Shown: positions 1,450-58,069 of the stretch, piece after piece
Layout: each line of letters begins with the position of its first letter
How positions within the stretch are numbered: position 1 is the stretch's first letter
NCBI RefSeq assembly: GCF_026627925.1
Contig: NZ_JAPNLE010000009.1
Coordinates: forward strand, 1,302,001 to 1,366,000
Length of the DNA stretch: 64,000 nt
DNA from: Cupriavidus sp. D39
Lineage (GTDB): Bacteria > Pseudomonadota > Gammaproteobacteria > Burkholderiales > Burkholderiaceae
Reading direction: 5' to 3'
Notes under the pieces: generated by a model
Seen by the model: the letters and a program-made list of their open reading frames with translations, nothing else
What the model was told of the DNA's origin: nothing
Database searches by the model: none
Position numbers and translations under genes: made by a program

Positions 1450-2609
1450 TCAAAGCCGCTCGATAAACCAGTCGCAGATCAAGCTCAGGGCAGGTTCTGG
1501 CCGGTCGAGCTGGACATGCGCGGCGCCGCCTTCTGCTTCGGTATAGACGCGCAGCTCCTTGTGGCGGGAGCTCGCCTCGGCAAACAATTCCTGCGCCTCG
1601 ATGAGTGGCGTTTGCCGGTCGTGTTCGCCATGAACGATCAGGAAGTCGCAAGTAATGTTGGAGGCGACCCCCTTCAGGCGGAACTTCTCAAGCTTCTCGA
1701 AGGCCTGGTCCCAGGTCTGCACGCCCATGATCCGGAGGAAATGCTTCCCGGTGGTGCCCAGCGCGGCATTGGCATCGAGTTGCTGGATGCCGGCGCCCTT
1801 TTCATATCCGACACGGCGCTGCCAGCAAGCGTAGTAGTCATAGATGGCCGCCCATGCCACGCAAGCCTTGATCCGCTTCTCGAAGCAAACGGCGCGCGGA
1901 GCGTAGTAGCCCCCATCGAGGCCGCCATCAACCCGATGCGATCCGCGTCCACATCGTCCCTGCCCGATACATAGTCGACCACTGCCGACAGGGCCACTTC
2001 GGAGTCATGCCGCGCTACGAGACCCTTCACCCGAAGGGTGGCGCCCTGACCCGGGCCGTCAAAGCCAAGGCAATTGATGCCGCGCGCAGCGAGCGCACGT
2101 GCAACGTAGAACATTTCCTCCTTGGTGCCGTCGAGGCCGTCGTGCAACAACACCGTGGGCGCCCGACCGGTCACGTTCTGGGCTTTGACGAAGTATGCCG
2201 TGATAGCCGAATTCTCGAACGGAATATCAAGAATCTCGACCTGCGGGGAACTAAGCTCGGCAAATTCCCTGAAACAGTCAAGATGCTTGCCATAATAAAT
2301 TGGCGCGCGTGCATCGTCCGGATCCAGGAACGCTTCCGTCCATTGGTAGTACTGCGCGGCGCGGAAATAAGCCTCCCGCGCGGTGACCGAGTGCCCCTTG
2401 CCCGCCGCATCCCGCGCTACGCCTTCGACTTGTTCGGAAAGCGTGTGCCACGCCTTGTGCCACGCCTCGGTATCACCCGCGGCACCGGCTTTCGAAGCTT
2501 CGTGCAGATTGCGGCAGACCCAATCTATCTCTCCAAAGATGCCACCGCCCGCCATGCAGCGCAGCACCGAGAGCGACCACATATAGTTGCCGGGAAAATA
2601 CTGAAACAT
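1450..2609 (-). pseudogene. Alpha/beta hydrolase (dihydropseudooxynicotine hydrolase/FrsA-like), frameshifted as sequenced
   Basis: This is a two-part hydrolase: an N-terminal helical domain (about residues 1-130) and an alpha/beta-hydrolase core with APTVLLHDGLDGTKEE, FDGPGQGATL, and the nucleophile elbow AASMG. Just after that serine the frame breaks at a run of five C on the plus strand (1910-1914). One extra base would restore MAASMGGYYAPRAV and join the C-terminal half, which carries the acid (FLIVHGEHDRQTP) and histidine (GGAAHVQLDRP) regions. Corrected length is 386 residues. The family cleaves C-C or ester bonds in catabolic intermediates such as 2,6-dihydropseudooxynicotine; the substrate here is unknown. 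It is divergent from the AraC regulator at 2824, a likely controller. The break is either decay or a base-calling error. Confidence 0.8.
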
Positions 2610-2823
2610 AGTTCCTCCAATTAATAACTCATTTTTAAATACCGCACAATCCGTAATGCTCTATCTATTTAACAACCTTACTATTTCCGTCTTGCCCAGG
2701 AATCGCTTCGACGGTTAAACTTTAAACGAACACTAAATTATCAGCATAACCAAAGCATCCCCCGGTTACCCAATCGTCCCAAGATGGCGAAGGCACACCA
2801 ACGAGGATTCAGGAGACACATCA
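2610..2823. promoter_or_regulatory. Divergent intergenic region between hydrolase and AraC regulator
   Basis: This 214-base, A/T-rich spacer separates two divergent genes and must carry both promoters. A GGAGG-like site precedes the minus-strand hydrolase start (ATTGGAGGAACT then ATG). No unambiguous -35/-10 pair or AraC operator could be fixed by eye. Confidence 0.5.
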
Positions 2824-3678
2824 ATGGCCAAGGACCGGCTCATTCGCATCGTTCATGGCAGTTTCGGACGCGCCACGCTTCATCTGATCGAAGGGGCGCT
2901 TGTCGCACACGCTCACGCCGAGTTTCATCTGATTTTCAAGCTGGGCGGCTCGGACGCTCTCTTCAAGGTGGACGACAGCACGGTCACGGTGTCTGAGGAC
3001 CGCGCACTGCTGATCAATCCATGGTCGACACACGCCAAACTGGATCAAGGCCCCGAACGGTCCCTCCTGCTGGCGCTCCTGCTCGACCCCGGCTGGCTTG
3101 GAACCACCCTGGATATTGAGAACGCAGCAACCGGTCTGCAGTTCAGGGAGCTCGCCGCTGGAGTGGATGGCGAGATAGCGACGGCACTCGCCGCGCTCAG
3201 CGGCTGCCTCGCGCACGGTGAAACCAATGCGACCACAAGCTGCGAGGAGGCCGTGGCCCAACTGGTAAGAGCAATCTCGGCACGATATGCCAAGCTTCGT
3301 TCCATGACCGAGGTCCTGGCCACATCAAAGCCGCTTGACTATCGAATCAAACGCGCGGCGGAGTTCATTCGGAACCATGCATGGGAGAACCCGAATGTAG
3401 AAACCGTGGCGAATGCAGTGGGCATGTCGCGAAGCCGTCTTTTTGATCAGTTCAAGGCTTGCATGGGGATCTCGCCCCAGCAGTACCTCGACTGGGTTCG
3501 CGTGGGCCTTGCCACCCGGCTGCTGACAGAGCGTCACACGAGCATCGGCGAAGTTTCGCACCAGTTGGGCTTTAGCGCACAAAGCCACTTCACGCGCTTC
3601 TTCGTCCAGCATCTGGGGATCAGCCCGTCGGAATTCCGTCGTACGGGCATTGTCGCTGGCGTGCAGTCCGGGCAGTAG
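2824..3678 (+). CDS. AraC-family transcriptional regulator
   Basis: This 284-residue protein has an N-terminal cupin-like sensing domain (HAHAEFHLIFKLGG near residues 27-40) and a C-terminal double helix-turn-helix. The first HTH is near VETVANAVGMSRSRLFDQFK and the second near IGEVSHQLGFSAQSHFTRFF, followed by the signature GISPSEFR. The layout is standard for AraC activators of small-molecule catabolism. It is transcribed away from the frameshifted alpha/beta hydrolase at 2609, so that hydrolase is the most likely target. The acetamidase-cytochrome-Bug operon converges on it from the right. The inducer is not predictable. The start at 2824 is preceded by GGATTCAGGAGACACATCA, a good ribosome-binding site. 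Confidence 0.92.
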   Translation: MAKDRLIRIVHGSFGRATLHLIEGALVAHAHAEFHLIFKLGGSDALFKVDDSTVTVSEDRALLINPWSTHAKLDQGPERSLLLALLLDPGWLGTTLDIENAATGLQFRELAAGVDGEIATALAALSGCLAHGETNATTSCEEAVAQLVRAISARYAKLRSMTEVLATSKPLDYRIKRAAEFIRNHAWENPNVETVANAVGMSRSRLFDQFKACMGISPQQYLDWVRVGLATRLLTERHTSIGEVSHQLGFSAQSHFTRFFVQHLGISPSEFRRTGIVAGVQSGQ

Positions 3679-3705
3679 TGCGCGCCAGCCATCTGCAACA
3701 GGCTG

Positions 3706-4854: not shown

Positions 4855-4918
4855 CTTTTGTGCTCCTCCTTCTGAGAATCTGAATCTCTGGCTTTCACCT
4901 GATCGCCGGCTTTCCGGC

Positions 4919-5570
4919 TCATTGAAGTTGCGCGACGTACTGAGCAACAGCCTCGATCTCTCCATCGCTCATCAATGGCACGATCAGGCTCATCAAGCTT
5001 CCCCGGTCCGCCTCGCATGCCCGTCCTCCATGCGTGCAGTTGCTTCTCCACGTACTCGGATTGCTGGCCACCGATCCTCGGAAAATCGGGAGCAATACCC
5101 TCACCGCCGGGCCGATGGCAAGAGACACACGCCGGCAATCCATTTGCTGGATTACCCTTCCAATAGATCACGCGACCAGGTTCGACCAGGTCCGCCGAGA
5201 CTGGTTGACTTCGTGCTGGCGGCCGATGACTGAAATAGCGGGCGAGATTCTGCATTTCATTGTCATTAAAGGGTTCCATCACCACGCGCATCACTTCGTT
5301 GTTACGTAGCGGCTTCTCACCAGCGGTCCCCTTGAATTGCCGCATCTGCTTAAGCAGATAGTCCGCATTCTGTCCCGCGAGGCTGGGATACGCCCCTTGG
5401 TGGCTTTGACCGCCGACGCCGTGGCACGCCGCACATACCTGCTCTGCAACACGCCGTGCATCCGACAGGTCCCATGCTCCGGATTCAGGTTCACCCCGGG
5501 CCTGTGAGATGAGCACAAGCAAGGCCGCGATCAAGGCAGCGTGGGTTCGGCGTGTCGGACGGCGTCTCAC
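4919..5570 (-). pseudogene. Diheme cytochrome c (c4-like), frameshifted as sequenced
   Basis: Two CxxCH heme sites are visible, CAACH and CVSCH, each followed by the usual distal methionine region. An n-terminal RRRPTRRTH segment plus a hydrophobic stretch (ALIAALLVLIS) forms a Sec signal peptide, so the protein acts in the periplasm as an electron carrier. I start at the GTG at 5570 because GAGGGG lies eight bases upstream; a TTG at 5603 would overlap the previous stop. Near the end the frame breaks at a C run at 5001-5004 (plus strand). Removing one base gives SLMSLIVPLMSDGEIEAVAQ and a normal c-type C-terminus at 4919, total 216 residues. It lies between the Bug protein and the acetamidase-like gene, suggesting a shared oxidative pathway. 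Confidence 0.8.
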
Positions 5571-5599
5571 AATGATGTCCCCTCGGAAGATTGACTGGC

Positions 5600-6865: not shown

Positions 6866-7639
6866 ATGGATACGAAAGACCTCGTTTTAGTTGGCCATGG
6901 ACCCATACATGTCATCGCCTTGCATGGCTGGTTTGGTCATGCGCGAAGCTGGGGACATTTTCCAGGTGAAATCGATGTGGAGACCTTCACCTATGCTTTC
7001 ATCGACTATCGGGGCTATGGATCCCGTCGCGATCGGGAAGGTACCTTCAGCATTGGCGAAATTGCCAAGGACACGTTGGCCCTTGCAGATGGGCTTGGAT
7101 GGGACCGCTTCGCATTGCTCGGCCATTCGATGGGTGGGAAGGCCATGCAGGCCGTCTCCGTCCTTGCCCCCGAGCGCATTACGGCAATGGTGGGTATCAC
7201 ACCTGTTCCACCGACGCCTGTCGAGTTCGATGCTTCCACGCGAACGTTGTTCGAGAGCGCCGCCCGCAGCGTGGAAGCCAGAATCGGGATTATCGATACC
7301 ACCACGGGTAACCGGCTTGGGCGGGCATGGCTCGCGCGAATGGCACAGGATTCCATCGCGCACTCCGAGGTCGCGGCGTTTGCCGCCTACTTTCAGGCAT
7401 GGGCAGACACCGACCTGTCGGGGCGCATTGCGGGCATCGAAATTCCCACACTGGTGCTGGTCGGGGAACATGATCCGTCGCTGACCGCGGCGTTCATGGA
7501 AGAGACCTACGGCAGGTTGTTTCTGAATGTGGAAATCGAGGTCATTGGTAATGCGGGTCACTACCCCATGAACGAAGCGCCAGTCGATTTGGCCACGCGA
7601 GTCGAGAGCTTTCTTGCCGGCTTGGCTGGTAGGATCTGA
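6866..7639 (+). CDS. Alpha/beta-fold hydrolase
   Basis: A 257-residue single-domain hydrolase. The oxyanion region is IALHGWFGHARSW, the nucleophile elbow is LLGHSMGGKAM (Ser), the acid lies in VLVGEHDPS, and the histidine in GNAGHYPMNEAP. All catalytic elements are present, so it should be active as an esterase, lactonase or C-C hydrolase. An AAGAAAGGGAAGATAA site precedes the ATG. It is divergent from the Bug operon (204-base spacer) and convergent with the GlcG-like gene, so it probably belongs to the same catabolic locus. No signal peptide, hence cytosolic. The substrate is unknown. Confidence 0.9.
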   Translation: MDTKDLVLVGHGPIHVIALHGWFGHARSWGHFPGEIDVETFTYAFIDYRGYGSRRDREGTFSIGEIAKDTLALADGLGWDRFALLGHSMGGKAMQAVSVLAPERITAMVGITPVPPTPVEFDASTRTLFESAARSVEARIGIIDTTTGNRLGRAWLARMAQDSIAHSEVAAFAAYFQAWADTDLSGRIAGIEIPTLVLVGEHDPSLTAAFMEETYGRLFLNVEIEVIGNAGHYPMNEAPVDLATRVESFLAGLAGRI

Positions 7640-7648
7640 GGCGACAAG

Positions 7649-7675
7649 CGCCGGCCGCATACTGAACGGCCGGCG
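7649..7675. terminator. Hairpin between convergent genes
   Basis: CGCCGGCCG and CGGCCGGCG form a perfect 9-bp stem with a 9-base loop, 10 bases after the hydrolase stop and before the convergent heme-binding gene ends. There is no clear T-tract on either side, so efficiency is uncertain; it may serve both directions. Confidence 0.5.
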
Positions 7676-7709
7676 ACGTACCCGAAGGCGGGATTCGCAA
7701 CGTCTGCCC

Positions 7710-8215
7710 CTATGGGGTTTCCGTTGCACCGATCGCGGCGATGCCACGCCTGCCCGCCTCCTCGTCCATGTCTGACGCCCCCCGCTGACGCCAACAGCAC
7801 CAGCCAATTGACCGCCGATATAGATCCCGAGCGAGCCTTGCGACGGTAAAAGAGGACCACCATAGACGAGGGAACTCATCTGCCCGAAGACAATAGGATT
7901 GGCTCGATAGCGCTGCGCCAGTTCGGCACCAGATGCTCCGCCGGTGGCCGCTGTCGCCAACGCCTTGCCGCGAGCGACATCGAATGTCGCAAACGGGGCT
8001 CCGTCCATCCGCACGCCAGTCACAAAGTGGCCTGCTGCATCCACGACGACAATGCTGACGGGTGTCTTCTTCTGCCCGGCGAACTGCGCCGCGGCACTAA
8101 CGAGATGACTTGCTGTTTCCAGGCCAAGTCCCTTTCCTTGTACTGCTTGCTCTGCGCAAGCCGGAAGGGAGCCGCACAACTGCAATGCAGCCGCCGCCAG
8201 CACTAGGTATCGCAT
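7710..8215 (-). pseudogene. GlcG/HbpS-family heme-binding protein, frameshifted as sequenced
   Basis: The protein starts with a signal peptide (MRYLVLAAAALQLCGSLPACA) and continues as a GlcG/HbpS domain: PVSIVVVDAAGHFVTGVRMD, FDVARGKALATAATG, LPSQGSLGIYIGGQLAGAVG. The family is small (about 140-170 residues), binds heme or cobalamin-like ligands, and often accompanies catabolic operons. At a run of six C on the plus strand (7778-7783) the frame is lost; one more base restores SDMDEEAGRRGIAAIGATE and a stop at 7710, total 168 residues. A GGGGAGG site precedes the ATG. The next gene upstream on the same strand is the porin, 168 bases away. Confidence 0.78.
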
Positions 8216-8383: not shown

Positions 8384-9435
8384 TCAGAACAGTTGGCGCA
8401 TGCCAAACATCACGCCCTGCGGGTTGGATGCACCAGCGGGTGACACGTCATTGGGGAAGTTTGAGAACGTGTAGTTGGCCTGACCCTTGTTCCAGATCTT
8501 GCTGGCATTTGCGTATAGTGTCGTGCGCTTGGACAGATTATGTTGGTAGCCCAGGGATGCCTGGTCGCCCCGGTTCGACGTACCAACCGTGCGCTGCATG
8601 CCATACGCCAGCAGCACCAGCCCGCTTGGACCCACAGGTACGGAAACGCCGACATGGTAGCCGCGGTCCTTGATCGTAGCCTGCCCCGGATTCCAACGTG
8701 TTGCCTGACGCCCGTTGACGAATACCTTCAACCACGGGAACTCATACGTTCCCCCGATTGCGCGCTCGTCCCGATCGGCATTCGCGACGCCGCCAATGCT
8801 GTAGGTTCTCTCATAGGCCAGGCCGAGCCAGAGCGGCCCTCTGCCATAGGTAAGTCCGACCGCCTTCAGCCAGTCAGCGTCGCGCGGTGGCGCGGTGCGC
8901 TCGGCCCCGAGCGAATAAATCAGACTAGCTTGAAAGCCCGCCAGCTCGGGGCTCTCATACCGGATGGAATTGTCGGCGCGGGCAGTAAGGCTACTGCCCG
9001 CGGGGCCGCTGTTCTGCAAACGCCCAAGCGGGCCATACGGCGAGAAGCCAAAGGCTGACGCCTGCCCCTCGATGTAGTAGATAGGGGTATTCTGCCGGCC
9101 CAATGTCACCGCCCCCACTGCGTGCTGCTCAGGCCTACCCAGGCCTGCCGGCCAAACAGCCGGCCACCTTGTTGCACGGTACCCGAGTCCAACGCGAGCC
9201 CGGTCTCCAGCGTAAACACGGCAGACACGCCGGAACCCAGATCCTCCTTGCCACGCAAGCCCCAGCGGGATTGGTAAAGGCCGCCGTCCTCCACGCGCGT
9301 GGCGTGCTTATCGCCAGACTTGACGTACTCAATGTACTGATCGGCCACGCCATAGAGCGTGACTCCACTCTGTGCGCTTGCCAAACCCGGCGTGACAGCT
9401 GCTCCCGCCAACAAAAATGCTCCCAGCTTCTTCAT
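8384..9435 (-). pseudogene. Gram-negative (Burkholderia-type) trimeric porin, frameshifted as sequenced
   Basis: This outer-membrane general porin has a signal peptide (MKKLGAFLLAGAAVTPGLASA) and then QSGVTLYGVADQYIEYV, the typical start of betaproteobacterial OmpC-like porins. The plug-loop region (RLFGRQAWVGLSS, then VTLGRQNTPIYY) follows, and the protein ends in the terminal phenylalanine needed for BamA recognition (GMRQLF). The frame breaks at five C on the plus strand (9112-9116); one extra base gives TQWGAVTLGRQ and a single 350-residue protein. Start 9435 has an AAGGAGAGAGC site. It sits beside catabolic genes and may admit the pathway substrate; its specificity is unknown. Confidence 0.85.
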
Positions 9436-10496: not shown

Positions 10497-11443
10497 ATGA
10501 CCTGGACTCTCCGCATGCGATTGCCCATTTCCAACCAAGAAGCTGCCGAGCGGGCCATACAGCGCGACTCATTGGGCTGCATGGCGCAAGCATTGCTCCT
10601 CGATCAGGCGCTCGCTGCCGGAGATCTTTGCTTTTTTCGCAAAAGCTCGGCGGTCGAGCACGTAAGTCAGGTGGTGACGCCAGCTTCCGGACGTGGATTT
10701 CTGGCAGGCGTGTCGCTGGTGGATGGGCATCGCCGACGCATCTTCCATCAGAATCGCGCAAGCACGCATGCGTTTGAAGCAGGCTCCGTTTACTTGCGCA
10801 ACTTCCAGGATGACTACAAGGCCGATCTCTCCGGCACCTTCGATTTCGTACTGATCGAACTCCCTCCCTGTTCATCGAGCGGACAGCCCTGGAATTGGGC
10901 TGCCCCGCAAGTCTCGAGTTGCGTCACGCCGCGGCGCTGCGCGACCCTGTGCTGGCGCATCTCGCCCAGGCACTCCTGCCGGCTCTCGACGGTGCCCACG
11001 GTGCAAGCCGATTGTTTATCGATCAACTCGGACACGCGATCGGGACACATCTGGTCGAGCATTATGGAGCCGTCAACCCCGGGCGCATTCGTCCAATGGG
11101 CCGGCTTTCTTCCCGCATACTGGCGCGGGCGCAAGAGTATCTCGCCGCACGGCTGGACGACAGCACCGTGTCCATTGCCGAAGTCGCCGATGCCTGTCAA
11201 TTATCCCGAAGCCATTTTTCGCGGGCGTTTCGCCAGAGTACTGGCAAGACGCCGCATGAATGGCTGCTGGAGCGTCGCCTCGAGCGCGCGGCGGCGCTCC
11301 TTAGCACCACGGAGCTTCCGATCGCAGGTGTCGCCGCTTCATGTGGCTTTGCCGATCAAAGTCATCTCACGCGCAGCTTTTCCAAAAGTCTTGGCCAGAC
11401 TCCGGGTAACTGGCGACGCACGCAGCAGGACCTCATGCCCTGA
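10497..11443 (+). pseudogene. AraC-family regulator with AraC_N-like domain, frameshifted as sequenced
   Basis: The N-terminal half (about residues 1-120) resembles the AraC-binding-like domain of benzoate and oxygenase regulators (LCFFRKSSAVEHVSQVV, GSVYLRNFQDDYKADLSG). The C-terminal half is a standard AraC DNA-binding domain: VSIAEVADACQLSRSHFSRA, then IAGVAASCGFADQSHLTRSF and GQTPGNWRR. The two halves are in different frames; adding one base in the C-rich stretch 10862-10869 restores a 315-residue protein with FIERTALELG at the join. The ribosome-binding site of the 10497 start is weak, so a downstream start is possible. The target genes are unknown; the large hybrid kinase lies downstream on the same strand. 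Confidence 0.75.
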
Positions 11444-11825: not shown

Positions 11826-14800
11826 ATGAAGCCATCGTTCCGCTTCTGCGTCGAGGGGGATGTCCGTTCCCGGGTCCTGTGGAAGGATAGCGACCGTGTT
11901 CTCGGCCGCTGGATCATCGAACTCGACGGCCGGCAAACGCCTGTTCTGGCGGTCTGGCCCGCTACCGAGCGCCCGACTTCCTCCAATCTCTCCCGCCTCA
12001 CGCACGAATATGGGCTGAAGGAGGAGTTGGATGGGACATGGGCGGCCCGACCGCTGGAGCTTGTGCGCGAAAACGGTCACACAGCACTGCTGCTCGAGGA
12101 CCTTGGTGGCGAGCCGCTAGCCGGGCTGCTGGGTTCTCCCATGGAGTTGGGCCGCTTCCTGCGCCTGGCCATCAGCATCGCCGCGGCCCTGAGCCAGCTC
12201 CATCGGCGACGCCTGATTCACAAGGACCTCAAGCCAGCCCACATCCTGGTGAACGATAACCTTGGGTCGGCCCGGCTCACCGGCTTCGGCGTTGCCTCGC
12301 GCCTGGCACGCGAGCGCCACGCGCCAGGTCCGGCCGAGGAGATTACCGGCACGCTGGCCTATATGGCCCCCGAGCAAACCGGGCGCATGAACCGGCCGAT
12401 CGATGCCCGCAGCGACCTTTATGCATTCGGCGTCACCCTTTATCAAATGCTGACTGGCGTATTGCCATTCGCTACCGACGACCCGATGGGCCTGGTGCAC
12501 TGCCACCTGGCCCGGCAACCGATGCCGCCAGCGCAGCGGATCCCGGGTATCCCGGAATTGCTCTCCGACCTGGTGCTGAGGCTGCTTGCCAAACCAGCAG
12601 AGGAACGCTACCAGACGGCGGCAGGGCTGGAAGCTGACCTGCGGCGCTGTCAGGTCGAATGGGAGAACCGGAGCCGCATTGATGCGTTCCCGCTTGGCGC
12701 GCATGATGTGCCCGAGCGGCCGATGACCCCGTCGCGGCTCCATGGACGTGAGCGCGAAATGCAGGCGCTACTTGCTGCCTATGATCGGGTAATGGCAGAC
12801 AGCGCGCCGGAGCTTGTGCTGGTTTCGGGGTATTCCGGGATCGGCAAGACTTCGGTCGTACATGAATTGCGCCAGGCCGTGGTCTCCCGTTATGGACTTT
12901 TTGCATCGGGCAAGTTCGATCAATTCAAGCGAGACATCCCCTATGCCACGCTGGCACAGGTGCTGCAGAGCCTGATTCGCCCACTGCTGGGCAAGAGCGA
13001 GGCAGAGCTCGAGCCGTGGCGCCAGGCACTGGACACGGCGCTGGGGCCGAATGGCGCACTACTGGCGCCCCTCATTCCAGACCTCGAGTTGATCCTGGGG
13101 CCGCAGCCGCCTGTAGCAGCCTTGCCGCCAAGGGACACGCAACATCGCCTCCATCAGGTATTCCAGTGCCTGCTCGGCGTCTTTGCCCGGGCCGAGCACC
13201 CCTGGTGCTCTTTCTCGACGATCTGCAGTGGCTGGATACGGGAACGCTCGATCTGCTCGCATACCTTGCGACTCAATCAGAGATGCGCCATCTGCTGCTC
13301 GTCGGCGCCTATCGTAGCAATGAGGTAAAGGCCAGCCATCCGTTGCTACAGCGATTGTCGGCCATACGCCAGGCCGGTGGGCAGGTGCGTGACATCAAGC
13401 TTGCCCCGCTTGGGGTGACCGACGTCGGCCGGCTAATCGCCGATGCCCTCCGCTGCCCGCCGGCGCGCGTTGCTGCCCTGGCTGGTCTCGTACAGGCCAA
13501 GACCGCTGGCAATCCGTTCTTCGCCGTACAGTTCCTCACGGCCTTGGCGGACGAGGAGTTGCTCGCCTTCGATCAACGGGTCGCGGGCTGGTCCTGGGAC
13601 CTTGAGCAGATTCTGGCCAAGGGGTTCACCGAAAATGTGGCGGACCTCATGCTCAGCAAACTGGGGCGCCTTCCAGAGGGGACGCGGGATGCACTGCAGC
13701 TGTTGGCCTGTCTTGGCAACGACGCCACGACCGCGCTGCTGACGATAGTTCATGGCGGAGACCAGACTCTCCTTGAGGAAGCGCTTTGGCCGGCGATTCA
13801 CGCTGGGCTCGTGGTGCGCCAGGAGGATACTTGCCGCTTCCAGCACGACCGCATCCAGGAGGCCGCCTACCGGCTGATCCCCGAGGGTGCGCGGCCGGCG
13901 GCACACCTTGAAATCGGCCGGCGACTGGCCGCGGGCACGCCGCCAGAGGCAGTCCCGGACCGCATCTTCGAGATCGTCGGCCAACTCAATCGCGGCGCCG
14001 CCCTGATTCACACTACCAGGGAGCGCGAGCAAGTGGCCGAGCTGAACCTGCTCGCTGGCGAACGCGCCAAGGCCGCAACAGCCTACGCCTCGGCGCTGAG
14101 CTGCCTTGCCGCCGGAACTGCCCTCCTGCGGGGAGACGCCTGGAAGCGCCGACCCGAGCTGGCTTTCGCGCTCGATCTCCACCGCGCCGAATGTGAGTTC
14201 CTGACCGGCGCCTTGCCCGTGGCGCAAGCGCGCCTTGCCGACCTCGCGGATCGAGCCCGCAGCCTTCCTGACCTGGCTCACGTCACCCAGCTTCAACTGG
14301 AGCTGTTCCTGGCCTGCGGCCAGCGCGCGCGCGCCGTCGAGGTGGGCCTCGACTACCTGCGCCGTGCCGATATCCACTGTCCGGCACAACCGAGCAAGGA
14401 AGACGTGCAGCGTGAATACGGCCGGATGTGGCAGCTGATTGGCAACCGCCCCATCGAGGCGCTGCGCGACCTGCCACTGATGACGGATGCGGTCTCCAGG
14501 GGCACGATGGATGTCCTGACGGCGCTCATGCTGCCAGCCTGGTACACGAACGTTGACCTGGGCTCCCTCATCATCGGCCGGATGACCAACCTCAGCCTTG
14601 AACATGGCAACTGCGACGCATCGTGCCTGAACTATGCCTGGCTCGGCCTGCTCCTGGGACCGCAATCCGGCGACTACGATGCCGCATTCCGCTTCGGCCG
14701 TTTAGGCGTGGACCTGGTGGAGCAGCACGGACTGGACCGCTTCAAGGCCCGCGTCTACCAGGCGTTCGGGGGCCACGTCATGCAGTGGACTCGCCCGATT

Positions 14801-17334
14801 CGGACCGCGCGCAGCCTGGTGCAACGTGCTTTCGACGTGGCGAGCAAGCTCGGCGACCTCACCTATGCGTCCTTCGCGCGCAACAATCACATTACCCAGA
14901 TGCTCGCCATTGGCGAGCCGCTCGCCGAGGTGCAGCGCGAAGCCGAGGCCATGATCGACTTCGCGTACAAGGCGAGGTTCAGCCTGGCTGTAGACAGGGT
15001 CACGCCCCAGCTCCAGTTGGCCCGCTCGCTGCTCGGACGAACTCCGGTCTTCGGTACATTGAGTGATGCCGGCTTCCATGAGGAGTCATACGAGCGATAT
15101 CTTGATGAGCCTCCGGGTCCCACGCTCGCCACCTGCTGGTACTGGGTCCGCAAGCTGCAGGCTCGCTGTCTTGCAGGCGATTATGCAACCGCATTGGCGG
15201 CGGCAGATCGGGCGGAGCAGCTGCTGTGGACGTGTCCATCGTTCTTCGAGCAAGCGGAGTACCACTTCTACGCCGCGCTGGCGCGCGCCGCTCACGACAT
15301 CTCGCTCGCGGAGCCAGAAAGGATCCGGCATATCAGGATCATCAGCGACCACCATCGCCAACTCCTGCTCTGGGCGGAACATTGTCCGGAGAATTTCCAG
15401 ACCCGCGCCGCATTGGTGGGTGCCGAGCTCGCACGCCTCGAAGATCGCGAAACCGATGCGATGAACCTCTACGAACAGGCGATCCGCAGCGCGCGAGACA
15501 GTGATTTCATCCATAACGAGGCGCTCGCTAACGAACTGGCGGCGCGCTTCTACGCTGCGCGGGGCTTTGAGAAGATCGCCAGGGTCTACCTGCAGGATGC
15601 CCGCCACGGCTATCTACGTTGGGGCGCCGACGGCAAGGTTCAGCAACTTGACGGGCTCTATCCACACCTTTGCGGCGAAGAGAGCGCGCCTGCGCCGACT
15701 GCGACGATTGGCCTGCCGCTGGAACGCCTGGACCTTGCCACGGTAATTGCCGTGTCCCAGGCGATCTCGGGCGAAGTGGTGCTGGACAAACTGCTCGACA
15801 CGCTCATGCGCAGGGCGCTCGAACAGGCAGGCGCCGAGCGCGGAGTGCTGGTCCTTTCCCGAAGAACCGATCTGCGCGTCGTTGCCGAAGCCACAACCCG
15901 CGGCGATGCAGTCACCGTTCAACTGCTCGACGAGAGCGTTTCCGCGGCGGTGCTGCCTGTATCGATGCTTCACTATGTGCTGCGCGCCCGGGAAAACATC
16001 ATCCTTGACAATGCGACTACCCAGAACGCGTTCGCTGACGATCCGTACATCCAGCGGCGACACGCCCGTTCGATCCTGTGCCTGCCATTGCTGACTCAGG
16101 CCAAGCTGATTGGCGTACTCTACCTCGAGAACAACCTTGCCCCGCGCGTCTTTGCGCCGGCCCGGACCGCGGTACTGAAACTGCTCGCATCGCAAGCTGC
16201 AACCGCGATCGAAAACGCCCATCTGTATCGCGATCTCGCACAACGCGAAGCGAAGATCCAACGCCTGTTGGAGGCCAACTTCATAGGCATCTTCATCTGG
16301 CACCTCGACGGCCGCATTCTTGAGGCCAACGACGCGTTCCTTCACATGCTGGGCTACCACCGCGACCATCTCGTATCGGCCAGCCTCAATTGGGCGGACC
16401 TGACGCCTCCGGAATGGCATGAGCGCGACGCCAGGCTGGCGCAGGAGTTCAGGCTGACCGGGAGCGTGCCGCCGCCGTTCGAGAAGGAGTTCTACCGCAA
16501 GGATGGCAGCCGCGTACCCGTGCTGATTGGGTCCGCAAGCTTCGAAGAGAGCGAGGATCAGGGTGTCTCCTTCGTGCTCAACCTGACTGAACGCAGGCGC
16601 GCCGAAGAAGCGCTGCATCATGCGCAGGCCCAGCTTGCTCACGTCACGCGGGTAACAACGTTGAGCGCACTGACAGCATCGATCGCCCACGAGGTCAACC
16701 AGCCACTGGCCACCATCATCACCAACGCCAATTCGGCTCTGCGCTGGCTCGCCCGCCAGCCTCCCGATCTTGGGGAAGTGCACGATGCGGTGGAGAGCAT
16801 TGTCCAGGCCGGGCATCGCGCCGGCTCGGTGATCGGGGGATGCGTGCACTGTTCAGGAAGACGACTGCTGTCAGTGTGGCGCTGGACTTGAACCGACTCA
16901 TCGAAGAGACCAGAACCCTCGTCCACTGCGAGGTGATCCGTCATCAAATCCTGGTCCAGACCGATCTGGCCGCCGACCTCCCGCAGGTCGTGGGAGATCG
17001 GGTGCAGTTGCAGCAAGTATTGCTAAACCTCTTGATGAACGGCATCGAGGCGATGAAGGACGTGACCGACCGCCCCAGGGTGCTGCTGATTCAGTCCCGG
17101 TGCGACGCGGCCGGAGCCGCCCTGGTCGCGGTTCACGATACAGGCATCGGGCTGGAACCACAGGCTGAGGAGCGAATCTTCGACGGCTTTTATACAACGA
17201 AGACGGAAGGCCTGGGCATGGGTCTCACGATCTGCCGAATGATCGTCGAAGCGCACGTAGGCCGACTGTGGGCAAGCGCGGTTGCGCCTTTCGGCTCCGT
17301 CTTTCAGTTCACCCTGCCACCCGCGCACAATTAG
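11826..17334 (+). CDS. Hybrid Ser/Thr kinase-ATPase-sensor histidine kinase (two apparent frameshifts)
   Basis: With both breaks repaired this is one protein of about 1836 residues. Order of domains: Ser/Thr kinase-like (residues about 1-290; catalytic loop HKDLKPAHILVND, MAPEQTGRMNR); AAA-type ATPase (P-loop GYSGIGKTSVV, Walker B LVLFLDDLQWLD); a long helical TPR-like region; GAF (about 1300-1460); PAS (LLEANFIGIFIWHLDGRILE); HisKA (IAHEVNQPLATII, phospho-His); HATPase (N-box LLNLLMNGIEAM, VHDTGIGLEP, GLGMGLTICRMIVEAH). The kinase DFG motif reads GFG, so Mg binding by the first domain may be lost. Breaks lie at four C (13199-13202) and five G (16835-16839); one added base in each gives a continuous frame. 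No response regulator is encoded next to it. The signal is unknown. Confidence 0.88.
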
Positions 17335-27687: not shown

Positions 27688-28286
27688 TTATGGCTTCTTG
27701 CCCTCTTTCCCCAAAAGATACCTTTCGATTCGCGAATCGGGAAGAAACCAAAATGCAGCCATCGCAATTAGAATAAGTGTTGCTGCAATGCTGCTAAAAA
27801 ACTTACCACGATCGCCAGTGCGTAGACAACCAGAGATAATCTCCCCTTCAGATCTTTGCCAATCGCACCTGCGAGGGAGGAGCCCTTCCCCTCCAATGCC
27901 ATGATGACACGTTGCAATACCCAATAGGATACGGCACACATGAACAGCACAAAGGCATACAACGCGGTTGGAACTTCCGAGAATTCTGACTTTCCAGTCC
28001 AGGTGGTGGTTATGGGAATCATCGTCAACCAGAACAACAGATTGAGATTGGCCCACATGACCTTTCCATTGATGCCGCGCACCATCTGGAACAAGTGATG
28101 GTGATTATTCCAATAAATTCCGACGTAAATAAAACTGAGCACATATCCGAAGAAATGATGGGCCTCCGCTTGCACTCCGTTCCAGTTAAATTCGGCGGGA
28201 AGCTGAATCTGATACAGCATCAGCGTCAGGCTCACCGATATGACACCATCACTGAAGGATTCCAGTCGGCTTTTGTTTATGACCAT
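27688..28286 (-). pseudogene. TMEM175/DUF1211-family potassium channel-like protein, frameshifted as sequenced
   Basis: The N-terminus RLESFSDGVISVSLTLML carries the RxxxFSDG motif of TMEM175-type K+ channels, followed by helices including HHFFGYVLSFIYVGIYWNNH. Near the end a run of six A on the plus strand (27796-27801) breaks the frame. One more base gives ALAIVVSFFSSIAATLILIA and a C-terminus ending in LLGKEGKKP at 27688; corrected length is 199 residues, normal for the bacterial family. The gene is strikingly AT-rich compared with its surroundings (60 bases at 28081-28140 count 22 G+C). It is the last gene of the minus-strand group beginning at 32401. Confidence 0.8.
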
Positions 28287-37175: not shown

Positions 37176-37721
37176 TCACTTCGGTGCCCGGACCATAGCC
37201 GGGCGGTGGCGTGACACTCGGCTCGCGCCGGTATTCGGGTGATTGCGGCCGGCGTGCCACGGGGCGGCGCCGGCATCCTTGTTTTGCGTTTCTTTTTGCA
37301 GCTCCCGTTGTTCACGTTGCTCGCGTTCGCGCACGCGTACGCGCTTGGCGGCCGGGATCTGCACCGCGGCGAAGAAGGCCAGCATCGCGGCCAGCACCGG
37401 CAGCCAGATCTTTCCGGCGCCCTGCACGGGCAGGTCGAACATGAGCATCCACGCCACGATCAGCACCGCGCTGGCCAGGTTGACCTGCCCGACTGTTCGC
37501 GCCACCGCCACCGTGAGCTGCCCGTTGACGGTCGCCTGCCACAGGAGCAAGGCCAGGCCGATCAGGGCCACGCCGAGCAACTGCCCGTACATGGCGGGCT
37601 GCGGCTGCGGCAATTGCAGCGCGCTGTAGAAGGTCGTGAAAGGCGACAGCAGCATGACGATGCCGAGCAGCAGATTCAGCAATGCGTCCAGGAACAGCAC
37701 GGCACGCAGCAATACTTTCAT
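37176..37721 (-). CDS. Small integral membrane protein between guaB and guaA
   Basis: A 181-residue protein with about four helices (AVLFLDALLNLLLGIVMLL, LLGVALIGLALLLWQA, LASAVLIVAWMLMFDL, IWLPVLAAMLAFFAAVQI) and a charged, Arg/Glu-rich cytoplasmic tail. The start at 37721 (MKVLLRAV) follows GGAGTTCTT. I do not recognise a named family beyond the general appearance of uncharacterised Burkholderiaceae membrane proteins. It lies 150 bases after guaB and 39 bases before guaA on the same strand, so it is likely cotranscribed with them. Its role is unknown. Confidence 0.75.
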   Translation of the reverse strand: MKVLLRAVLFLDALLNLLLGIVMLLSPFTTFYSALQLPQPQPAMYGQLLGVALIGLALLLWQATVNGQLTVAVARTVGQVNLASAVLIVAWMLMFDLPVQGAGKIWLPVLAAMLAFFAAVQIPAAKRVRVREREQREQRELQKETQNKDAGAAPWHAGRNHPNTGASRVSRHRPAMVRAPK

Positions 37722-37870: not shown

Positions 37871-39334
37871 TTAGTCGATGTAGTAGTTCGGCGCTTCCTT
37901 GGTGATCTGCACGTCGTGCACATGCGACTCGCGCATGCCCGCGGCGGTGATCTGCACGAACTCGGACGTCTCGTGCCAGTCGGCGATCGAGCTGCTGCCG
38001 CAGTAACCCATGGAGGCACGCACGCCGCCGCACATCTGGTGGATGATGGCGGTGACCGAGCCCTTGTAGGCCACGCGGCCTTCAATGCCTTCGGGGACCA
38101 GCTTGTCGACGTTGGCGGTGTTGTCTTCCTGGAAGTAACGATCTGCCGCGCCGTCTTTCATCGCGCCGACCGAACCCATGCCGCGGTAGCTCTTGAAAGA
38201 ACGCCCTTGGTACAGGAACACTTCGCCCGGTGCCTCTTCGGTACCGGAGAACATGCCGCCCATCATGACCACATGCGCGCCGGCAGCCAGTGCCTTGGCG
38301 ATGTCGCCCGAGTAGCGGATGCCGCCGTCGGCCACCAGCGGCACGCCGGTGCCCTTGAGGGCTTCGGCCACGTTGGAGACCGCGGTGATCTGCGGCACGC
38401 CCACGCCAGCGACGATACGGGTGGTGCAGATCGAACCCGGGCCGATGCCAACCTTGACGCCGTCGGCGCCATGATCGACCAGCGCCCGCGCGGCCGAGCC
38501 GGTGGCGATGTTGCCGCCGATCACCTGCACCTGCGGATAGTTCTGCTTGACCCAGCGCACGCGGTCCAGCACGCCCTGGCTGTGGCCGTGGGCGGTGTCT
38601 ACCACGATCACGTCCACGCCGGCCTTGACCAGCAGGTCGACGCGTTCATCGTTGTCAGGGCCCACGCCGACTGCGGCGCCTACGCGCAGCTGGCCGCGGT
38701 CATCCTTGCTGGCGAGCGGATGCTCCACTGCCTTCTGGATGTCCTTGACGGTGATCAGGCCGTTCAGCTCGAAATCCTTGTTGACCACCAGCACGCGCTC
38801 GAGGCGGTGGCGGTTCATCAGGCGCTTGGCGTCCTCCAGCGAGGCGTCTTCGCCCACCGTGACGAGCTTTTCGCGCGGGGTCATCTTGGCGCGCGCGGGC
38901 GCGTCGAGTTCTTCCTCGAAACGCAGGTCGCGGTTGGTGATGATGCCGACGACCGTCTTGCCTTCCACCACCGGGAAACCGGAGATGCCGTATTGATGTG
39001 ATAATGCAATCACATCACGGATCTTCATGTCTGGGGGAATCGTGATGGGGTCACGCAGCACGCCGGATTCGTAGCGCTTCACGCGCGCCACTTCCCGGGC
39101 CTGGTCGGCCGGCTTCAGGTTCTTGTGGACGATGCCGATACCACCGGCCTGCGCCATGGCAATCGCCAGGCGGGCTTCCGTGACGGTATCCATGGCGGCG
39201 GATACCAGCGGAATGTTCAATTCGATCGAACGGGTCAGGCGGGTACGGAGCGAAACATCCCGGGGCAGTACCGACGAATAGGCCGGCACGAGGAGCACGT
39301 CATCGAATGTGAGTGCTTTCTGGACAAGACGCAT
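37871..39334 (-). CDS. guaB: IMP dehydrogenase
   Basis: GuaB oxidises IMP to XMP with NAD+, the committed step to guanine nucleotides. It has 487 residues. The TIM barrel is interrupted by two CBS domains (about residues 93-205; [20 protein letters not shown] and [20 protein letters not shown]). The catalytic loop is [19 protein letters not shown], with the active Cys. The N-terminus [20 protein letters not shown] is typical. A TATAAT box lies 27-32 bases before the ATG, and a TAGAGGAATTGCT site precedes the start. guaA follows on the same strand. Confidence 0.98.
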
Positions 39335-39360
39335 AGCAATTCCTCTAGGCGCAAAACCGA

Positions 39361-39366
39361 ATTATA
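39361..39366 (-). promoter_or_regulatory. Probable -10 box of guaB
   Basis: The minus strand reads TATAAT exactly, 27-32 bases before the guaB start codon. No good TTGACA match sits 16-18 bases upstream, so the assignment rests on the -10 alone. Confidence 0.5.
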
Positions 39367-39456
39367 CAGGAATGGCACGTTTCTTGACGCGCCTGCGAGT
39401 GCCCTTGTTCAAGTCTGCTATGCTCTTTGTCTTTTTTCAGGGATAGGCAAGCAACA

Positions 39457-40425
39457 ATGGGTATCGGCGTACTGTGCGGCCTGCTGGCCGGCGCCTTCTG
39501 GGGCATGGTGTTCATTGCCCCCAAGCTGCTGCCCGTATTCTCCCCCTGGGAACTCGCGATCGGCCGCTACCTGGCCTACGGGCTGGTCGCTTTCATCGCC
39601 GCGGTGCCGCTGATGAAGCGCATTGCGCGCAAGCTCACGCGCGCGGATTGCCTTGCACTGCTACGCCAGGCCTTCACCGGCAACCTGCTGTACTACGTGC
39701 TGCTGGCGTTTGGCGTACAGCTTGCCGGCGTGGGCCCCACCTCGCTGATCATCGGCATCCTGCCCATCTCCGTCACCATCATGGGCCGGCGCGACCATGG
39801 CGCCGTGCCGCTGTCGCGCCTGATCTGGCCGTTGCTGGTGGTGGCCGCCGGCATCGCCTGCATCAATATCGACCTGTTCTCCGGCGCAGGGCACGCGCAT
39901 GGCGCTGCCGCGGGCGAGGCGGTGCGCAGCGTCTGGCAACGCCTGGCCGGCGTGATGTGCGCGGCCGGCGCGCTGGTGTGCTGGACGCTCTACGCGGTCG
40001 ATAACGCACGCTACCTGCAGCGCAACCCGCAGTACAGCGGCAATGAATGGTCCGCGCTCTATGGCATCTCCACCGGCGTGGTGTCGGTGGTGCTGGCGCT
40101 GCTGGCATTGCTGGGCTGGCTGGTGGCCGGCGACAGCCTCGCCGCGGCCAGCGGCGGGCGCGACTGGCAATGGTTCTGGATGGTTAACGCGGCCGTGGCG
40201 CTCGGCGCGTCGCTGATCGGCAACAACCTGTGGAATATCTCCAGCCGCCGCCTGCCGCTCACCTTGTCGGGCCAGATGATCGTGTTCGAGACGTTGTTCG
40301 CGCTGGCGTATGGCTTTGTCTTCGACCATCGGCTGCCACGCCCGCTGGAAATCGCGGCCATTGTGTTGCTGATGATTGGCGTGGCCTGGTCGGTGCGCTT
40401 GCACGCTGTCGACAAGTCTGCCTAA
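39457..40425 (+). CDS. DMT-superfamily (EamA) permease
   Basis: About 322 residues with ten predicted helices in two EamA repeats. The first helix starts GVLCGLLAGAFWGMVFIAP, and repeat two ends with LTLSGQMIVFETLFALAYGF then VLLMIGVAWSVRL. The start at 39457 (MGIGVLCG) places the first helix at the N-terminus; the frame is open to 39427. The family exports or imports small metabolites (amino acids, nucleotide-related compounds). It is divergent from guaB, with a 122-base shared promoter region. The substrate is unknown. Confidence 0.88.
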   Translation: MGIGVLCGLLAGAFWGMVFIAPKLLPVFSPWELAIGRYLAYGLVAFIAAVPLMKRIARKLTRADCLALLRQAFTGNLLYYVLLAFGVQLAGVGPTSLIIGILPISVTIMGRRDHGAVPLSRLIWPLLVVAAGIACINIDLFSGAGHAHGAAAGEAVRSVWQRLAGVMCAAGALVCWTLYAVDNARYLQRNPQYSGNEWSALYGISTGVVSVVLALLALLGWLVAGDSLAAASGGRDWQWFWMVNAAVALGASLIGNNLWNISSRRLPLTLSGQMIVFETLFALAYGFVFDHRLPRPLEIAAIVLLMIGVAWSVRLHAVDKSA

Positions 40426-40542: not shown

Positions 40543-41114
40543 ATGAAACGATCGACCGCGCTCTTCAATCTCGCCACGCTGGCCGCCCTCGCCTGCCTGT
40601 GCCAGGCTGCCACCGCCCAGACGGATTCGCAATGGCAGTGGCGCGACGGCAATGGCCGCATGGTCTACAGCGACGTGCCGCCGCCGCCCTCGGTGCCTGC
40701 CGCCAGTGTGATCAAGGCCCCCGGACGCTTTGCCGGCAGCTTGCGCCCGATCGAGCCTGGCGGCTCGCCAGCGGCGGGAGCTGGCCCAGCAGGCGTTGTT
40801 GCAGGCACCCAGCCCGCGCCGGCCGCGAAGGGCGATGGCAAGGTAAAAGCGGAGTCCATGGCAAGTGCCGAGGAGGCCTTCCAAAAGCGCCGTGCCGCGC
40901 AGTCGAAGCGGAAGCGGACCAGGCCGCCAAGGACCTGGCCGCGCAGGAACGCCAGGTGCGCTGCGCGCAATCGCGCAACTATGCGACTTCGCTGCAGCAG
41001 AACCGCCGCATTGCCGTGCCAGCGCCAGACGGCACGCCGCGTCATCTGAACGATGACGAGCGGCAGGCCGAATTGCAACGCGTCAACGCCAGTCTCGAGC
41101 AAAACTGCGCCTGA
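40543..41114 (+). CDS. DUF4124-domain periplasmic protein (apparent frameshift)
   Basis: A signal peptide (NLATLAALACLCQAATAQ) is followed by the DUF4124 core QWQWRDGNGRMVYSDVPPPP. The rest is an Ala/Pro-rich linker and a charged coiled-coil-like C-terminus (QAAKDLAAQERQVRCAQSRN, DDERQAELQRVNASLEQNC). The two parts are out of frame; one base is missing somewhere in 40880-40912, where no long run exists. Corrected length is 190 residues with a stop at 41114. DUF4124 proteins are common in beta- and gammaproteobacteria, and their function is unknown. Periplasmic location is inferred from the leader. Confidence 0.8.
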
Positions 41115-41150: not shown

Positions 41151-41503
41151 TCAGCCGCCACGTAGCCATTTCAGCCCTTCGCGCGTGCCGCCCTTGCGGG
41201 TCTTCTGCACGCGCCGGTTGCGCGCCGACTTGGGATCGGCCACCAGCGGGCGATAGACCTCGATGCGGTCGCCGGCCCGCACCAGGGTGTCCGGTGTCTT
41301 GAGCTTGCTGAAAATGCCGACCCGCATGGTGGCGGGATCCACCTCCGGACAAGCCTGCAGCAAGCCTGAAGCGGCAATCGCGGCGACAATGGTGGTGCCG
41401 GGGGCACCTCGAGTTCCTTCAGGAAGGCGTCGCCAGGACGGGCGTAGCAAACCGAGATACGCACCGCAGGTGCAGTGCCGGGGATGCCGGCCTCGTCAGC
41501 CAT
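41151..41503 (-). CDS. rnfH: RnfH-family (UPF0125) protein, apparent frameshift
   Basis: RnfH is a small ubiquitin-like-fold protein usually encoded next to ratA and smpB, as here. The N-terminus ISVCYARPGDAFLKELEVP and the C-terminal part GLLQACPEVDPATMRVGIFS, then DRIEVYRPLVADPK, are both clear but out of frame. A run of five G on the plus strand (41400-41404) should be six; that restores VPPGTTIVAAIAASG and gives 117 residues. The ATG overlaps the ratA stop (ATGGCTGA). The function is unknown; the pair resembles toxin-antitoxin layouts but is not proven to be one. Confidence 0.82.
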
Positions 41504-46644: not shown

Positions 46645-46912
46645 AAAAGCCTCAAAACAAAGTAAGAAACCTGTTGCTGACGCCCGGAATATTGTTGGAG
46701 TTCTGCTACCGGACGGATCGCTTGGCTAAACAGTCCCAGCGGCTCACAATCGGTATGCGATCGTGATTGCTGCAGCGCACATTGTTGACAATTCGTGGCC
46801 GAATCGTTGTGCCAACAGCGCTGACGGAATTGCTTAGCGAAAAGATCGCCGCTATTCTACCGTGCCGCACCGCACTTTCGCGGAGCGCGGATTCAAAAAT
46901 AATTGTCCATAC
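46645..46912. promoter_or_regulatory. Divergent ppsA-ppsR intergenic region
   Basis: 268 bases holding the promoters of both genes. A perfect TTGACA lies at 46785-46790 on the plus strand inside a short symmetry (ATTGT-TG-ACAAT), but no matching -10 was clear. No small gene seen. Confidence 0.45.
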
Positions 46913-49971: not shown

Positions 49972-51175
49972 TACACGCCCCTCCGCTGCCGGATCAGGTC
50001 GGCGACCACGGCCGAAGCGATCTCGGCGGTATTGCGTTTAAGCGTCTGGTGCATCTGGGTGAAATGGTCGCGCAGGAACGCGGTGTTGCCTTCGTCGTTC
50101 AGCTGCAGCAGCGTCTCGCGCGCCAATGCCTCGGGCGTGGCGTCGTCCTGCAACAATTCGGGCACGACAAAACGCCCCGACAGGATGTTGGGCAGGCCCA
50201 CATAGGGCAGGTAACCCTGCCGCTTCATGATCTGCGCGGTCAGCCAGGGCACCTTGTACGAGATCACCATGGGCTTCTTGTACAGCGCCGCCTCCAGCGT
50301 GGCGGTGCCGCTAGCCAGCAGGATCACGTCGGCGGCTTCCATGGCCAGGTGCGACTGCCCGTCGATGACGGTCAGCGGGATCTGCGGGTACTGCTGGTGC
50401 AGGCCCGCGACGATCTCGCGCAGCGGTGCGCTGGCAACCGGCAGCACGAAGGCGAGATTGCCGTCCATGCTGTGCATGCGTGCCATCGCCGCGAAGAACG
50501 TCGCGCCCAGGTTGCGCACCTCGGACTGCCGGCTGCCGGGCAGCACGGCCACCACGCGAGGCCCGGCCGGCAGGCCGAGCTTCTCGCGGGCGCCCTGCGT
50601 GTCCGGCACCATCGGGATCACGTCGGCCAGCGGATGGCCCACATAGGTGGCGGGAATCCCGGCGCGGGCGTAGATCTCAGGCTCGAACGGGAACAGGCAC
50701 AGGATGTGGTCGACCGCGCGCGCGATGGTGCGGATACGCCCCCGCGCCAGGCCCAGATCGACGGGCTGACGAAGTGCACCACCGGAATGCCGGCACGGCG
50801 CAGCGGTACCTCGAGCCCGAAGTTGAAATCCGGCGCATCCACGCCGATAAAGCACAGCGGCGGCTGCGCCAGCAGCTTTTCCTTGATGGCGCGGCGCGTG
50901 GCGAGGATCTCGCGCAGCGAGCCCAGCACCTCCACGTAGCCGTTGACCGAGAGGGTGTCCATCGGCCATTGCGACTCGAACCCCTGCGCCATCATGCGGG
51001 GCCCGCCGATGCCGGCATAGCTGACTTCGCCGAGGCGGGCCTTGAGCCCGCCCATCAGCAAGGAGGCAAGCAGGTCGCCTGAGTTCTCGCCAGCCACCAT
51101 GGCGATGGTGCCGCGATTGCCCGCGCCCGCCGCGACCGGCGTGGCCTCCATGGCCGGTAGGACACCGTCGACCAT
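49971..51175 (-). CDS. lpxB: Lipid-A-disaccharide synthase (apparent frameshift)
   Basis: LpxB condenses UDP-2,3-diacylglucosamine with lipid X, the first disaccharide step of lipid A. The N-terminal part ([48 protein letters not shown]) and C-terminal part ([40 protein letters not shown]) are both intact but in different frames. The break is a run of five C on the plus strand at 50739-50743; six gives [17 protein letters not shown] and 401 residues. Because lipid A synthesis is normally essential, the frameshift is more likely an error than a real mutation. It lies 14 bases after lpxA. Confidence 0.93.
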
Positions 51176-51189
51176 GGCTGTATCCGGCT

Positions 51190-53681: not shown

Positions 53682-54209
53682 TTACTTGCTGCCGGCGTTC
53701 AACGCTTTCATCACATCGTCGGTAATGTCGATGCGAGGATTGACGTACACGGCCTCTTGCACGATCAGGTCGTACTTGCGCTGCTCGGCAAGCTGGCGGA
53801 TCACGCGGTTGGCGCGCTCGAGCACCTGGGCCAGTTCCTCGTTGCGGCGCTGGTTCAGGTCCTCGCGAAATTCACGTTGCTTGCGCTGGAATTCGCGATC
53901 CAGATCGGCCACTTCGCGCTGGCGGCGTTGACGGTCGGCATCGGCCAGCACGGCCGTGTCCTTGTCGAGCTTGTCGGCCATGCCCTTGATCTTCTGGGCC
54001 ATGTCCTGCAACTCGCGGTCACGCTTGGAGAATTCCTGCTCCAGCTTGACCTGGGCCTGCTTGGCGGGCACCGAATCGCGCAGGATACGCTCGGAATTGA
54101 CCGCGGCGATGCGTGCTTCCTGCGCCGTGGCGGGCGCGGCAGCCAGCAGCGCGCCGGCCGTCAGCGCGGCGGCGGCCAGGCTCTTGATCAGTGGGAATGT
54201 TGTTTTCAT
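53682..54209 (-). CDS. skp: Periplasmic chaperone Skp/OmpH
   Basis: Skp escorts unfolded outer-membrane proteins across the periplasm to BamA. About 175 residues: a signal peptide ([20 protein letters not shown]), then [18 protein letters not shown] and two long coiled-coil arms ([40 protein letters not shown]). The start at 54209 (MKTTFPLIK) is favoured; an upstream ATG at 54224 adds five residues. It lies between bamA and lpxD, the conserved order. Confidence 0.95.
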
Positions 54210-54246
54210 GAATCCGTTCCTCAATCCTTCTTTTCTCTATTCTCGC

Positions 54247-56580: not shown

Positions 56581-56678
56581 GCAGGATTGGGCTCCGATGC
56601 TTCACGGGGCTGCGCCTTGGCTCGGCAGCCGGCGCGGGGTGTCAGTGACACCCGCACGCCGCAGCCGGCAACCTATGT

Positions 56679-58069
56679 CTAGCCGCGCGCTAAAAACAGC
56701 CGGCTGACATCGTTGAACAAGGCGAGCGAAGTCAGGAGCAAGACGCAGGCGATGCCGACCTTCTGCAGCACAGCCTGCCAGCGGTCTGGTACGGGCCTGC
56801 CAGTCAAAAATTCAACGCAATAATACAGCAAATGCCCCCATCCAATACCGGAATAGGTAACAAATTCAATACACCGAGGCTAACACTGACCAACGCCAGG
56901 AAGCCGACAAAGGGCTGCCAGCCGAGGTGGGCGGCACGCCCCGCGTAGTCCGCCACGGTCAGCGGGCCGCTCAGGTTCTGCAGCGACGCCTGCCCCACCA
57001 GCATCTTTCCGAGCAGCTTGAGCGAGAGCGCGCTCGTGCTCCAGACCTGCCCGACCGCGCGGCTCAGCGCCTCGACCGGCTGGTAGCGCACGGTCTCCAT
57101 CTCGACCGCCTGGCTCAGCGCGGCGCCGAGCTTGCCGGTGGCGGCGGCTGCCGCGCTGGCGCCCTGCGCAGCAGGGACCGTATCCAGCTTAACGGGCACA
57201 TCCAGGCGCCGGCCCTCGCGCTCGATGCCAAGCGTGACCTCGGCGCCGGGCTGCGCCCTGACCCCGCGGATCAGCTCCCCGGCCTGGGTCAGCGGGCGTC
57301 CCTGCCAGGCCACCACGCGATCGCCCTGGCGCAGGCCGGCGCGTTGCGCGGCGGAGTCCGGCAGGACTTCGGTAATCGTGACCGGGCCGCCCTTGAGGGC
57401 CAGCCCCAGCGTGGCAAGCGGGTCTTGTTCGGGATTGCCGCCGGTATTCGGCAGCCGCGGCAGCTTCACATCGCGCTCGGCGCCATCGGCCGCGCGCACG
57501 TGCAGCACCGCGCTGGCGTCGCCAAAGCCCTGGGCGAACACGGCCATGCGCAGGTCGTTCCAGGAACGCACCTGCTCGGTCTGGCCATTGGCCTGCAGCG
57601 CCAGCACGCGATCGCCCTCGCGCAAGCCCGCCTCGGCCGCGGGCGTGCCGGCAGGCGGCGCCGCGACGATGGGCACGGCCTCGCGCATGCCACCGGCAAA
57701 CAACACGAAATACAGCACAATAGCCAGGGCAAAATTGGCCAGCGGCCCGGCTGCCACGATGGCGAAGCGCTTGGCCACCGGCTGCCGGTTGAAGGCGCGT
57801 GGCAGGTCGGCGGGATCGACCGGCGCATCATGGCCCGGATCGCCCTCCCGCTCGTCGAGCATCTTGACGTAGCCACCCAGCGGAATCGCGGCGATGGTCC
57901 ATTCGGTGCGGTCCCGCCCCTTGGACACCCAGCGCACCAGCGGCCGCCCGAAGCCGATCGAGAAGCGCAGCACCTTGACCCCGCACAGGCGCGCGGCCAC
58001 GTAGTGACCCATTTCATGGAAATAGATCAGGATGCAAAGGGCAGCGACGAAAGCAATTACGGTTTGCAT
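56679..58069 (-). CDS. rseP: Site-2 intramembrane zinc protease RseP (apparent frameshift)
   Basis: RseP cleaves the anti-sigma factor RseA after DegS, releasing SigmaE during envelope stress. The zinc site is LIYFHEMGHYVAARLCGVKV (HExxH). Two PDZ domains follow (GLREGDRVLALQANGQTE, GLRQGDRVVAWQGRPLTQ). The C-terminal metal-ligand motif NLLPIPVLDGG is present, but directly after it the frame breaks at five C on the plus strand (56835-56839). Six would give DGGHLLYYCVEFLTGR and the last membrane helix, ending at 56679 with 463 residues. As sequenced, the last helix is lost. A base-calling error is likely because the gene is usually essential. Confidence 0.93.

Follow-up and report, generated by a model that had tools for sequence, protein, structure and literature searches.

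Frameshifted genes in the Cupriavidus sp. D39 assembly very probably reflect uncorrected long-read consensus errors

Background

Long-read sequencing errors consist chiefly of short insertions and deletions tied to homopolymers, as described in the excerpted text of the report on Kastor (PMC12007338); in an example long-read bacterial assembly given in those excerpts, pseudogenes made up 23.3% of genes, falling to 5.6% after correction. The assembly of Cupriavidus sp. D39, a strain from pea roots, was announced as 11 contigs totaling 7,740,597 bp with an N50 of 5,336,522 bp, obtained with an Oxford Nanopore R9.4.1 flow cell, Guppy 5.0.11 and Flye 2.9 with two polishing rounds, and the announcement makes no mention of short reads (PMC10112225). 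It states a coverage of 44-fold and 188.5 million bases of reads, although the latter figure over 7.74 Mb amounts to about 24-fold; the MinION run is deposited as SRR22426105 (PMC10112225).

A preliminary description of one stretch of 64,000 nucleotides of this assembly (hereafter the window; G000:C9:1302001-1366000, where G000 denotes the D39 assembly) had reported twelve single-base frameshifts in eleven genes, nearly all of them losses in homopolymer runs, and had attributed them to long-read under-calling. Here we compare the window and its surroundings with related genomes and weigh this attribution against biological alternatives.

Results and discussion

Frame breaks in the window

Alignment of the open reading frames (ORFs) and proteins of relatives to the window revealed a frame switch inside one homologous protein at all twelve of the named sites (Table 1). 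The presence of the breaks in the sequence is thus confirmed, as is their distribution over eleven genes, with the breaks at 13199 and 16835 falling in the same gene; the list proved incomplete, as one further break lies at 37260-37263, in a gene with no Pfam or NCBIfam match. Ten of the twelve sites were recovered with reference ORFs of relatives, while that at 5001 was recovered via cytochrome c genes and that at 27796 via TMEM175 proteins. The number of reference ORFs per break, which partly includes ORFs from overlapping stretches of one genome, ranges from 44 for rseP and 34 for lpxB down to a single one at 10862 (57-59% identity).

Table 1. Genes of the window interrupted by a change of reading frame, with the matches that reveal each break (G038 is one of the two relatives used as controls)
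Gene	Position	Strand	Matches crossing the break	Family matches
Gene with weak FrsA-like esterase match	1911..1914	-	4 reference ORFs switch frame	PF06500 on first piece
Cytochrome c gene	4995..5004	-	cytochrome c genes of three relatives (50-58% identity) switch frame	PF00034 on first piece
HbpS-like gene	7778..7783	-	3 reference ORFs	PF03928 on ORF 6887-8215
Porin gene	9112..9116	-	5 reference ORFs	PF13609 on both pieces
AraC-type regulator gene	10862..10871	+	1 reference ORF, 57-59% identity	PF12833 on second piece
Protein kinase / AAA_16 / histidine kinase gene, first break	13199..13214	+	8 reference ORFs	AAA_16 spread over two frames
Protein kinase / AAA_16 / histidine kinase gene, second break	16835..16840	+	8 reference ORFs	HisKA and HATPase_c in different frames
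TMEM175-family gene, near end	27796..27801	-	three TMEM175 proteins weakly continue in other frame	PF06736
Gene outside the earlier list	37260..37263	-	3 reference ORFs; pieces 95% and 98% identical to G038	
DUF4124 gene	40880..40912	+	2 reference ORFs in other frame, 67-70% identity	PF13511 on first piece
RnfH-family gene	41399..41404	-	2 reference ORFs	PF03658 on second piece
lpxB	50738..50743	-	34 reference ORFs; pieces 100% identical to G038	PF02684 on both pieces; G038 orthologue matches TIGR00215
rseP	56834..56839	-	44 reference ORFs; genus search	G038 orthologue matches TIGR00054

The individual sites differ in how sharply the switch is seen. At 27796 the matches to the second piece are weak (E-values of 0.004, 0.012 and 0.14 for the three TMEM175 proteins), and one of the three also keeps aligning in the first frame. 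The first piece of the AraC-type gene at 10862 shows no Pfam family match. At the lpxB site, six reference ORFs also cross in one frame: five of these align at 56-59% identity with 1-3 stops and look like over-extensions, and the remaining one is a short ORF at 77% identity with no stop.

The association of the breaks with homopolymers, which had been noted earlier, is borne out: 11 of the 12 sites have a run of at least 4 within 6 bases of the break, compared with a mean of 1.9 of 12 and a maximum of 6 in 5000 random sets of places having the widths of the twelve sites. With narrow random places the comparison gave 13.8%.

Frame switches indicated by the reference ORFs group into 21 clusters across the window: nine correspond to named sites, one to the break at 37260, one to a switch at 39433 and ten to other positions. 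We regard the switch at 39433, which affects an EamA-family gene, as doubtful, because 34 of 60 Cupriavidus genomes have a match that starts close to this point, and the switch may touch only an upstream extension. Over 39125-40422 of the window, the match to the EamA-family protein of close relatives starts at residue 80-111 in those 34 genomes. As for the ten others, those at 41955 (1 reference), 52550 (3) and 60245 (5) seem to stem from differing assumptions on where the gene starts; the cluster at 54209-54236 (11 references) is located upstream of a gene to which other references align in one frame, beginning at 54224 or 54209; and those at 46646 (3), 46899 (1), 50798 (1), 59391 (1) and 62525 (1) are each spanned in one frame by other references. 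None of these was counted, nor was the switch at 61672 (1 reference), for which no other reference spanning it in one frame was found. Ab initio scanning for frame switches returned 10 calls for the window, five of them on or near the named sites. For the calls at 564 and 21000 no homologue was found to test against; those at 22219 and 29322 are crossed in one frame by a weak homologue (46%) and by homologues of about 40%, respectively; and the call at 52549 is the same assumed-start difference as that at 52550.

Breaks beyond the window

As controls we used two relatives, G038 and G023, which are about 5-6% away from D39. The two chromosomes of G038 (4,566,734 and 3,303,026) are equal in length to those of C. 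basilensis DSM 11853, which was polished with Illumina reads. The genomes were aligned over 264 kb of the contig, comprising the window plus the 200 kb that follow it, and over 80 kb around the ribosomal operons, with 86 of 176 chunks in the former and 46 of 53 in the latter aligned in all three. Among genes of the first stretch that are conserved in the other two genomes, 25 of 98 are broken in D39, as against 2 of 75 in G023 and 2 of 75 in G038; in the ribosomal stretch the corresponding values are 8 of 64, 0 of 48 and 3 of 49. These counts come from a simple codon-score gene picker, and wrongly placed starts account for part of the 25 and of the 8 broken genes; a strict count of tight frame switches in the first stretch leaves 8 of 98 in D39 and none of 75 in either control. 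With breaks present in the controls too, an occasional real break is to be expected.

In four stretches of the window's contig, the ab initio scan gave 129-209 switches for each Mb of coding sequence. Among the control stretches, the four of 80-280 kb gave 16-43, and the three of 20 kb gave 0, 0 and 64. Values for nine small stretches of D39 contigs other than C9, C2, C3 and C10 ranged from 0 (in two of them) to 521. The problem is therefore not special to the window.

Most of positions 1-35500 of the window lacks collinearity with the corresponding part of chromosome 1 in the two closest relatives. Pieces of it match elsewhere, both on chromosomes 1 and 2 of G038 and on contigs from other relatives. 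These positions thus resemble an accessory region, flanked by a conserved core that starts at about 35.5 kb. Searches against plasmids returned relatives of this first 35 kb as well as the TMEM175 relatives. The contig carrying the window (C9) is 5.34 Mb long, against 4.57 Mb and 4.52 Mb for contig C1 of G038 and G023, respectively, and may include second-replicon material or be a misjoin.

The homopolymer signature

The three-way alignment comprises 196,801 columns, and in it the probability of losing a base climbs steeply with run length in D39. Runs one base short relative to both relatives number 20 of 115,594 at lengths 1-2, 7 of 4465 at lengths 3-4, and 12 of 103 at length 5; the share then reaches 8 of 22 for runs of 6 and 4 of 7 for lengths 7-9. 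This comparison with the two relatives supports the reading of the preliminary description: runs of at least 5 are one base short in 24 of 132 cases in D39, 2 of 106 in G038 and 0 of 105 in G023. Other alterations of such runs in D39 are few: 3 of the 132 differ by more than one base, and 1 is longer. Viewed from the D39 sequence itself, 43 of 69 single-base losses touch a run of at least 4, against a background of 3.5% of positions, and the same is seen for 3 of 14 and 2 of 11 losses in the controls.

Long runs are also depleted in D39. Runs of at least 8 number 0 in 308,483 bases of D39, 8 in 312,813 of G038 and 9 in 308,966 of G023, and no run above 7 was found in about 0.56 Mb of D39 sampled, whereas G038 and G023 reach 8 and 9. 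The ratio of runs of at least 6 to runs of 5, which is 0.12 in the D39 core, varies from 0.09 to 0.62 in single loci of about 22 kb from named relatives, one of them falling below the D39 value.

The bias toward loss, put earlier at eleven to one, is real and weaker over the larger stretch, with 69 single-base losses to 27 gains in D39 and 14:7 and 11:7 in the controls. The D39 branch is also the longest of the three (7062 substitutions versus 2556 and 2631), so that single-base losses per substitution are only about twofold above the controls. The excess is concentrated in long runs and gene breaks.

Events off long runs form a sizable class, in that for 26 of the 69 single-base losses the run touched has at most 3 bases. 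At the 14 gene-break junctions that were tied to a simple length difference, the relatives have a run of at least 5 in 4 cases and of at most 2 in 8; 13 further junctions could not be tied to such a difference. Some gene-break junctions sit at runs of 4 or 5 in D39 itself, which may have grown beforehand through a real substitution. The earlier attribution to homopolymer under-calling is supported, and is refined on two points: some of the events fall outside long runs, and the problem extends past the window.

Errors or mutations

The breaks are, with near certainty in our judgment, base-calling and consensus errors rather than mutations; the run-length dependence, the splitting of needed genes and the published method, which used R9.4.1 reads only, all support long-read under-calling. 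Under the mechanism we propose, R9.4.1 reads at about 24-fold raw yield, polished solely inside the assembler, would often leave homopolymers one base short. Further errors of one base, fewer in number, would also remain in the consensus. Each such error would shift the frame, and one real gene would then show as two or more overlapping ORFs. By extension, we infer that each single site is an error.

Elsewhere on the contig, outside the window, rpsC (ribosomal protein S3), rpsH (S8) and rpoC (RNA polymerase subunit beta'), named from profile matches of their G038 orthologues, are split. For S3 and S8 one locus each was found in the genome. A cell with broken S3, S8 and RNA polymerase beta' could not live, and consequently neither real decay nor hypermutation can be the main cause. 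Decay of the frameshifted genes of the window through mutation in the D39 lineage would account for the breaks being in the deposited sequence and for several affected genes lying in the accessory first 35 kb. It is also in keeping with a share of third-position substitutions slightly lower in broken genes (0.713, 27 genes) than in intact ones (0.750, 140 genes), first and second positions together having 11.5 substitutions per kb in broken and 8.1 per kb in intact genes. Nevertheless, the third-position bias of the broken genes is still strong, and the small gap may come from wrongly delimited genes or from a few truly relaxed ones. This, together with the rise of losses with run length and the splitting of needed genes, makes decay highly improbable as a general explanation. 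It is rather unlikely that even one or two of the twelve breaks are genuine recent inactivations; accessory genes within the first 35 kb would be the likeliest candidates.

Hypermutation in a lineage that lacks mismatch repair, which we consider just as improbable as decay, would fit the losses in homopolymers, these being a signature of mismatch-repair loss. Consistent with it, mutL (L258:3152-5358) is split into several frames, with no run of at least 4 around the single junction looked at. Yet there is more than one switch in mutL, which is what errors would produce, and its split may itself be an error, while mutS is open over 904 aa. Loss of mismatch repair also raises transitions, whereas the transition/transversion ratio is lower on the D39 branch (1.5) than on the control branches (2.2 and 2.5); the needed genes, too, are affected. 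The least credible of the alternatives, to which we give practically no weight, is that programmed ribosomal frameshifting or recoding restores the proteins. It would fit the conservation of both halves of each protein, but the 33 genes counted as broken in the two stretches are of many kinds, and most relatives encode rseP in one frame: the genus search found it in one match in 55 of 60 genomes, 9 of these with one stop inside the match. The reference ORFs taken from relatives have, by construction, a single frame.

Besides D39, rseP is also split in two other genomes, G053 and G052, whose splits align to different positions of the protein. In G053 (locus L253, G053:C1:1840001-1860000) the junction lies about nine residues away in the alignment, and the locus has few long runs; G053 may be another uncorrected long-read assembly.

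Conclusions

The frameshifts of the window are an ordinary artefact of an already described kind, and represent a quality problem of one public assembly. Given the conserved genes broken in the two stretches (25 of 98, or 8 of 98 by the strict count, and 8 of 64), gene absences, pseudogene counts and orthologue tables for D39 are untrustworthy without correction. The finding thus concerns users of databases, and we see no bearing on biology.

The D39 announcement is silent on frameshifts (PMC10112225). With respect to the case presented in the excerpts of the Kastor report (PMC12007338), D39 is another bacterium, and its error rate was measured against two relatives rather than against reads; it nonetheless resembles that case, so far as the excerpts describe it, in having one-base losses concentrated in homopolymers and numerous apparent pseudogenes.
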